Of a stretch of DNA of 64,000 bases, positions 37,348 through 38,433 are shown piece after piece (position 1 is the first letter of the stretch; each line of letters starts with the position of its first letter). The DNA is from Alphaproteobacteria bacterium. GTDB taxonomy: Bacteria; Pseudomonadota; Alphaproteobacteria; Rickettsiales; SXRF01. Where the stretch lies: contig JANYES010000004.1 in assembly GCA_025362975.1 (NCBI GenBank), positions 1 through 64,000 of the forward strand. Direction: 5' to 3'. Made by a program: the position numbers and the translations under genes. The notes beneath the pieces were generated by a model. The model saw only the letters and a program-made list of their open reading frames with translations. It was not told where the DNA came from and ran no database searches.

Positions 37348-38433
37348 ATGCCCGATTCCATCGAAAAGAATCTCATTCGCCGCGACCGCCCCCTTATCCT
37401 CGGCTGGCTCCTCACCTGCCTCGCGCTGATCGCGTTGATGGTGCTCATCGGCGGTTACACGCGCCTTAGCGGTTCGGGCCTCTCCATCACTCAGTGGAAA
37501 CCCATCCACGGCACACTCCCACCCATGAACGCTGACCAGTGGAACGAAGAATTCACCGCTTACCAGCAATCCCCGCAATACATCAAAGTCAATTCGGGCA
37601 TGACGCTCGATGATTTTAAAACCATCTTCTGGCCCGAATTTATTCATCGCTTATTAGGCCGCGCCATCGGCATGGTCTTCTTCCTTCCGCTCATCATTTT
37701 CGCCGCGCGCAAAAGCATATCCCGCCGCTTCGGCTGGCGCCTTGCCTTCATCTTTGCGCTGGGTGGTATGCAAGGCCTCATCGGCTGGCTAATGGTTAAA
37801 TCCGGACTTCAGGACGACCCGCATGTCAGCCCCATTCGCCTCGCCTTACACCTTTCCGCCGCCTTCGCGTTATTTGCTTTAATTCTATGGGCCGTCTTAG
37901 ATATCAAAGACGAATTGTCACCCCGTCGCATGACGGGATCCGCCTCACCGCGCACAACCACGGACCCCGTCATGCGACGGGGTGACAGCCTGCGGAAATA
38001 TTATCCCGCATGGTTCGCCCTCCTCTGCCTGCAAATCATTATGGGCGCCTTCATGGCTGGCATCCACGGCGGCCTGATCTACAACACATGGCCCCTCATG
38101 GACGGCCAGTTCATCCCCGATGGCCTGCTCGCCACCCACCCGTGGTATGCCAACATCCCCCTCATCCAGCTCATCCATCGCACCCTCGCCATCGCCCTCG
38201 CCGCAACCTACCTGCTGGCATGGTTCCCAGCCCGCAAAATCCTGCCCAAATCCGCGACCGCCCTTGTCCACACCCTACTGCTACAGTTCGCCCTCGGCGT
38301 CACCACATTACTCTACCAAGCCCCCCTCCCTCTAGCGCTCGCCCACCAGATGGCAGGTCTGCTGCTTTTTTGCCTTTCCATCATAGTCTTGCACCGAAGT
38401 TGCGAATCACTCGCAACACTGCAGATTTCCTAG
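37348..38433 (+). CDS. ctaA: Heme A synthase (COX15/CtaA)
   Basis: This 361-residue inner-membrane enzyme oxidises heme O to heme A for aa3-type oxidases. Eight hydrophobic segments and the family motifs are visible: GGYTRLSGSGLSITQWKP, EFIHRLLGRAIGMVF (heme His), VRLALHLSAAF-like IRLALHLSAAF, GGLIYNTWPLMDG, LIHRTLAI and HQMAGLLLF. Between helices, about residues 190-213 are encoded by a 72-base palindromic element that stays in frame and adds a Ser/Thr/Arg/Pro-rich loop. The gene otherwise looks functional. Confidence 0.95.
   Translation: MPDSIEKNLIRRDRPLILGWLLTCLALIALMVLIGGYTRLSGSGLSITQWKPIHGTLPPMNADQWNEEFTAYQQSPQYIKVNSGMTLDDFKTIFWPEFIHRLLGRAIGMVFFLPLIIFAARKSISRRFGWRLAFIFALGGMQGLIGWLMVKSGLQDDPHVSPIRLALHLSAAFALFALILWAVLDIKDELSPRRMTGSASPRTTTDPVMRRGDSLRKYYPAWFALLCLQIIMGAFMAGIHGGLIYNTWPLMDGQFIPDGLLATHPWYANIPLIQLIHRTLAIALAATYLLAWFPARKILPKSATALVHTLLLQFALGVTTLLYQAPLPLALAHQMAGLLLFCLSIIVLHRSCESLATLQIS
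37916..37987. repeat. Palindromic element inserted in frame within ctaA
   Basis: Positions 37916-37942 and 37961-37987 are inverted repeats of 27 bases with one mismatch, around an 18-base loop. The outer ends read TGTCACCCCGTCGCATGACG and its complement. Total length is 72 bases, exactly 24 codons, with no stop in the ctaA frame. The layout matches REP-like or Rickettsia-palindromic-element-like units that can sit inside genes. No second copy was noticed in the window. Confidence 0.9.

Follow-up and report, generated by a model that had tools for sequence, protein, structure and literature searches.

A palindromic element resembling CGTC-type REP dimers lies in frame within the heme A synthase gene of a Rickettsiales bacterium

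The heme A synthase gene (ctaA) of an alphaproteobacterium of the order Rickettsiales contains a 72-bp palindrome. By its arms, the palindrome fits a head-to-head dimer of CGTC-tagged REP units, with family 1 of that superfamily as the nearest relative. It is very probably a selfish, non-autonomous, REPIN-like element which landed in ctaA and was tolerated in a variable linker of the protein. Fold-back inserts are also found in the ctaA linker of related genomes, which suggests a recurrent landing site for hairpin inserts, a modestly new pattern. The window is the whole stretch of DNA analysed, 64,000 nucleotides long. Its relevant features are as follows.

37348..38433, plus strand: ctaA, heme A synthase of 361 aa, which carries the insertion (Pfam COX15-CtaA, E 2.8e-100)
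37911..37915, plus strand: possible left outer extension, CGAAT; AAT stands before the tag in 8/48 units
37916..37987, plus strand: 72-bp dimer fitting head-to-head CGTC-type REP units, REPIN-like, covering residues 190-213, LSPRRMTGSASPRTTTDPVMRRGD; recognised by its inverted repeat, its copies in the genome and its lack in relatives
37916..37942, plus strand: left REP unit, TGTC-ACCCCGTC-GCAT-GACGGGAT-CCG, 26/27 to the consensus
37943..37960: 18-nt spacer, similar by eye to those of certain other dimers in this genome
37961..37987, minus strand: right REP unit, TGTC-ACCCCGTC-GCAT-GACGGGGT-CCG, 27/27 to the consensus
37988..37992, minus strand: possible right outer extension, CAGGC on that strand; GGC stands before the tag in 7/48 units

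The original prediction was of a stop-free, 24-codon insertion in an inter-helix loop of a heme A synthase that must stay functional; the insertion is borne out. The COX15-CtaA match spans residues 20-343 of the ORF product. The reading frame is uninterrupted by a stop across the palindrome, which starts at the second base of codon 190 and ends at the first of codon 214. His100, His168, His277 and His333, which presumably bind heme, are invariant in an alignment of 29 proteins. Judged from its sequence, the insert-bearing ctaA thus keeps an open frame and its conserved residues, and the enzyme is probably still functional. In an AlphaFold model of the protein (mean pLDDT 86.4), a helix covers residues 162-190, confidence is lower over residues 191-210 (block values of 73 and 57), and the chain is helical again from residue 207. 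The helices are undisturbed, and the model places the insert in the variable linker from helix 4 to helix 5, between the two four-helix halves; we take this linker to face the cytoplasm. A fold search with the model returns only heme A synthases (8aw5 and 6a2j) below E 0.001. Searching PDB sequences with this one protein as query gives no match at E 0.001, and the score of the protein against the NCBIfam alphaproteobacterial CtaA equivalog is 284.6, below the cut-off of 550.

The palindrome exceeds chance. Its two arms, at exactly the predicted coordinates, are 27 nt each and 96% complementary. A 91-nt RNA segment around it folds at -55 kcal/mol (shuffled sequences: mean -28.2, sd 3.6, n=200, none as low). 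The arm pattern, with at most 3 mismatches, matches twice in the window, at the arms themselves (shuffles: mean 0.00, n=100). Each arm is also a small hairpin in its own right: TGTC, a stem of ACCCCGTC and GACGGGGT, a GCAT loop and a CCG tail. The ctaA copy is open in two of six frames; the peptide that it encodes is short and polar, with many R, T, P and S residues. An Rfam scan of the window at gathering scores gives no match.

The arm recurs elsewhere in the 3.26-Mb genome, so that one of the two conditions named as refuting the original prediction does not hold. BLAST of the element against both strands gives 74 matches with E no higher than 10; after two 26.5-bit matches are dropped, these merge to 35 places, ctaA included. 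Around these places, 52 units reach at least 18/27 against one of two consensus forms. Many are paired head-to-head, frequently with one degenerate partner, while other places hold apparent single units. Pairing was assessed in 35 units picked by hand from the 52; duplicates and the most degenerate or shifted units were omitted, so the figure of 91.8% of 280 stem cells paired in the 8-bp stem (loop of 4 nt) is inflated. The consensus tag of the picked units is TGTC and the consensus tail is CCG. Two-sided changes occur at six of the eight stem pairs; for either of the two inner pairs, 7/35 units show them. The covariation score of the stem is 0.283, against 0.182 in shuffles (0/500 as high) and at most 0.144 with slid partners. 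A-T is commonest at stem position one (27/35) and C-G at position two (30/35). This genome also has a CGTC-type unit that belongs to a different sequence class, CGTCATCCCCGCGAAGGCGGGGATCCA (C16:129975-130001).

Conservation may extend beyond the arms by a few bases (CGAAT...GCCTG, about 37911-37992). AAC also precedes the tag (6/48 units), and the tail probabilities on background composition are 2e-5 for AAT, 3e-10 for GGC and 3e-5 for AAC. This excess suggests that the true element could be about 82 bp long and have ends of at least two kinds. Fourteen head-to-head dimers were measured, that of ctaA included. The dimer length is divisible by three in 7/14; among the 84 frame choices, 12 combine a divisible length with an open frame.

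Compared with ORFs of at least 100 aa, the 34 other places yield no clear insertion into a gene. Eight lie wholly inside such ORFs (ten ORFs, all scanned with Pfam). Eight of the ten have no Pfam domain, and in the other two, an M20 peptidase and a phage capsid protein, the repeat precedes the domain on its N-terminal side, in what by eye resembles sequence ahead of the true start. With only such cases elsewhere, ctaA stands alone in its genome as a clear intragenic case. The dimer at C28:27391-27456 is immediately upstream of the phage capsid gene; the element thus also occurs in a prophage-like stretch.

The distribution of the element in the order is patchy. A search of 37 genomes of the order finds it at E 0.01 in nine, the present one included. 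The two same-genus genomes, G001 and G002, have no match at E 0.01. Units near those described here are found in two other families of the order, in G035 (16 matches at E 0.01) and G033 (7 matches).

Alignment of CtaA with its relatives, suggested in the original prediction, places the insertion in this genome and not in its neighbours: it is missing at this position in the ctaA genes of G001 and G002. The second refuting condition, a loop common to all related CtaA proteins, thus does not hold either. A wider survey covered 80 distinct ctaA genes (81 loci, of which L179 repeats L050) from 141 genomes of the order with a match; it leaves out 61 of the 141, many of them from families f12 and f20. 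Forty loci were fetched by hand, 12 of them chosen for a match split near the linker, a possible bias in favour of inserts; none of these 12 is on the insert list. About 12 of the 80 genes have fold-back inserts in the linker. Seven of the 80 are found by a strict inverted-repeat scan (L031, L036, L037, L045, L047, L167 and L187), which finds none in the gene core and two in upstream extensions. Five more are insert-like by length, motif or partial repeat but are below the threshold (L040, L043, L169, L173 and L217). The comparison set from outside the order numbers 168 genes, comprising the 80 best matches (many from Rhizobiales) and 88 genes of a class sample, 60 of which were fetched roughly by rank. 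The strict scan finds none in the linker and one in the core in the former, and none in the linker in the latter. The difference (7/80 versus 0/168) has a Fisher P of 3e-4 with relatedness ignored.

The inserts are of more than one type. By eye, L031, L036, L045 and L187 are CGTC-like dimers, as is L040 with a bulged stem; L169 and L217 are single CGTC-like units. A second fold-back type, with arms made of tandem words of about 7 nt, is found in L037 (G008), L043 (G015), L047 (G036) and L167 (G061), and the type of L173 is unclear. In G094 the linker is 81 nt longer than in five near relatives, the single case with close empty sites. When the linker is left out of the ctaA tree, the 12 insert-bearing rows are scattered and need 11 changes, or 5 if only starred branches are believed; 232/500 shuffles give an equally low count. 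If a genome is assumed to hold 10 intragenic inserts, 0.5 ctaA inserts are expected in 80 genomes, and 1.0 if it holds 20 (relatedness ignored). Three further loci should be noted. Besides its linker insert, G036 bears a CGTC-1-like dimer at the ctaA start or immediately ahead of it. The ctaA of G080 (L216) is broken across two reading frames, by a frameshift or an assembly error. Outside the order, G226 (L314) has an 82-residue linker with SLSPTGERVGVRG, below threshold in the strict scan; this sequence presumably resembles another widespread hairpin repeat.

Recurrence of the linker inserts in their own genomes was judged from match counts at E 1e-4, with the insert's own place and both strands included; in some genomes a part of the candidates was scored. 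The counts are 70 in G005, 39 in G006, 18 in G020, 56 in G097, 23 in G130, 2 in G094, 28 in G008, 9 in G036, 5 in G015, 3 in G061 and 1 in G124. The joined queries share motifs, so the matching segment was inspected among the matches listed. In G006, G097, G020, G008 and G036 nearly all listed matches are to the own or a very similar segment, and in G005 they are to the own and to a G006-type segment. Among the matches listed, G015 has three other places of its own type and one cross-match, G061 has two partial ones, and G124 has only itself. Recurrence is thus clear in the present genome, G005, G006, G020, G097, G008 and G036, and weaker in G015 and G061. It is not shown, among the matches listed, for the inserts of G130, G094 and G124. 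In G130 all but two of the listed matches are to the G097-type segment, the exceptions being the own place and one more, so that the G130 insert itself hardly recurs. Of the two G094 matches, the second is absent among those listed.

Elements in several of these genomes are also found inside other genes. The survey covered 63 further places, which are the top of the match lists and not a random sample, and pre-start cases were excluded by eye. At 12 of the 63, the insert is in frame, lies 20 or more residues within an ORF that carries a Pfam domain, and does not have the look of a pre-start extension. Four of 21 places in G006 are of this kind: Lnt, QueA, a CCA-adding enzyme and a class I tRNA synthetase whose domains are IleRS-like (L223, L236, L240 and L241). 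So are two of nine in G020 (GTP cyclohydrolase II and TruB; L262 and L267) and six of 12 in G008: a 2-oxoacid dehydrogenase E2, UvrA, a HAD phosphatase, an amidase, Ddl and a transketolase (L271, L272, L275, L278, L279 and L280). None of 21 places in G097 is intragenic by the same criterion. Several of the inserts are between domains; in the amidase, the HAD phosphatase and GTP cyclohydrolase II a recognised domain is present on one side only. Intragenic copies are thus common in other genomes of the order, and ctaA appears as one tolerant site among others.

RAYT transposases, which accompany REPINs, belong to the Y1 class, the sole class searched for here. Y1_Tnp (PF01797) has no match in the present genome at E 0.001, and mobilisation by a RAYT of this genome is rejected on this ground; as the genome is 98% complete, the absence is likely rather than certain. 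Y1_Tnp was also not found in G005, G006 and G020, which bear other CGTC-type ctaA inserts. It is present in 5/37 genomes searched among the relatives, including G008 and G015, whose ctaA inserts are of the 7-nt-word type. One 2.0-Mb genome of the order, G026, has 87 Y1_Tnp matches of mostly equal score, an IS200-like expansion.

The favoured origin is that of a selfish element. The dimer would have been mobilised whole, in its folded form, with an enzyme acting in trans to copy it. This enzyme would not be a Y1/RAYT of the present genome, but either a transposase since lost or a different enzyme. The copy in ctaA may have persisted because it is 72 bp long and has an open frame, and its short polar peptide would be harmless in the linker. 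The filter would be the tolerance of a flexible polar loop, with insertions elsewhere in genes mostly purged. The linker would take up fold-back elements repeatedly in related genomes because extra residues are tolerated there.

The hairpin could instead be retained for a function in ctaA, such as tuning of the ctaA mRNA or slowing of the ribosome as it passes from one four-helix half to the other. A very stable hairpin is placed between the halves of CtaA, fold-back inserts occur repeatedly at this linker in the order, and both arms of the ctaA copy are near consensus. However, the 68 insert-free ctaA genes of the order have a mean z of +0.22 with none below -1.5, positive z values are also found in 4 of 12 insert-bearing genes in the segment used for folding, and the inserts are scattered on the ctaA tree and not conserved. 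In genes from outside the order, mRNA structure at the linker is mildly shifted (mean z -0.62, 16/80 below -1.5), for which composition is the only explanation offered. A generally needed hairpin is rejected, as the insert-free orthologues in the order lack extra structure. A translational role is possible but not supported, and a retained function is improbable. Equally improbable is a reading in which the linker is a truly preferred target of several unrelated fold-back families, moved by a non-Y1 activity, and the retained hairpin helps to pace membrane insertion of the halves.

An RPE-1-type palindromic element of coding genes, dispersed in the form of protein-coding inserts, is more doubtful still. 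The ctaA insert is in frame, stop-free and in a loop, and the related genomes have intragenic copies of their own elements at the 12 places described above. Against this, the 34 other places in the present genome include no clear insertion into a gene, and half of the 14 measured dimers have a length that is not a multiple of three. RPE-1 copies are chiefly in frame within protein genes, a habit that this genome does not share; the reading is set aside, as the extragenic copies largely refute it. Template switching can create palindromes, but a decayed ctaA or an artefact of assembly or local template switching is the least credible origin, given the intact frame, the retained invariant residues and the 35 places at which the arms are found.

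The findings bear on two wider questions. The available text of PMC3733652 does not settle which agent moves CGTC-type REPs, and 35 places in a genome where no Y1 transposase is detected sharpen the question. Whether shared RPE insertion sites are hotspots or mark one old, diverged insert is weighed, and left undecided, in the available text of PMC3767692, a paper on R. japonica. Different element types on scattered ctaA branches, beside insert-free sisters, favour a hotspot, most simply one of tolerance. The CtaA linker is also a natural series of loop-insertion experiments in a membrane enzyme. No description of a palindromic insert in ctaA, or of ctaA as a recurrent landing site, was found among the papers listed on ctaA and heme A synthase, REPINs and RPEs, and intragenic palindromes with arms of heptamer words have no clear match among the papers listed.

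Several known families resemble the ctaA element. CGTC-tagged REPs have a CGTC or TGTC tag and a 3-nt tail, with an 8-bp stem and a 4-nt loop in family 1; they are mainly head-to-head dimers, are found mostly in alphaproteobacteria, and include some intragenic copies (Di Nocera et al. 2013, PMC3733652, as far as its text was available). The tag, the lengths of stem, loop and tail, and the dimer layout are common to CGTC-1 and the present element. The original prediction did not recognise the sequence; it is indeed a repeated palindromic element, but one that fits this published superfamily. There are differences from CGTC-1. Its first and second stem positions are described as "almost invariably" A/T, a tendency, whereas the second is mostly C-G here, and its tail is mostly CCA and not CCG (PMC3733652). 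The genes named as hosts in the text of PMC3733652 do not include ctaA; the full gene list is in its supplement. CGTC-tagged REPs are described there as having no dedicated transposase; the present genome has no detected Y1_Tnp. REPINs are inverted REP doublets which form a single hairpin (Bertels and Rainey 2011, PMC3116915, in its available text). The ctaA dimer matches this layout and the single hairpin, but the REPIN tag is GTAG and not TGTC, and REPINs are accompanied by a RAYT, of which none was found here.

CGTC-1 is equated with RPE-6 of Rickettsia and with dRS3 in the available text of PMC3733652. The predicted parallel with Rickettsia palindromic elements therefore stands at the level of the superfamily, whereas the habit of inserting in coding genes is absent from the present genome: its copies are nearly all extragenic, unlike those of RPE-4, RPE-6 and RPE-7. 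The ctaA gene is not among the RPE hosts in the listed part of PMC3767692. Insertion in genes is nevertheless common to the ctaA element and RPE-4, RPE-6 and RPE-7 (PMC3767692, PMC3733652). Among the RPE hosts recorded in the available part of PMC3767692 are QueA (tRNA ribosyltransferase-isomerase) and isoleucyl-tRNA synthetase, and in G006 QueA and the IleRS-like synthetase are insert-bearing too.
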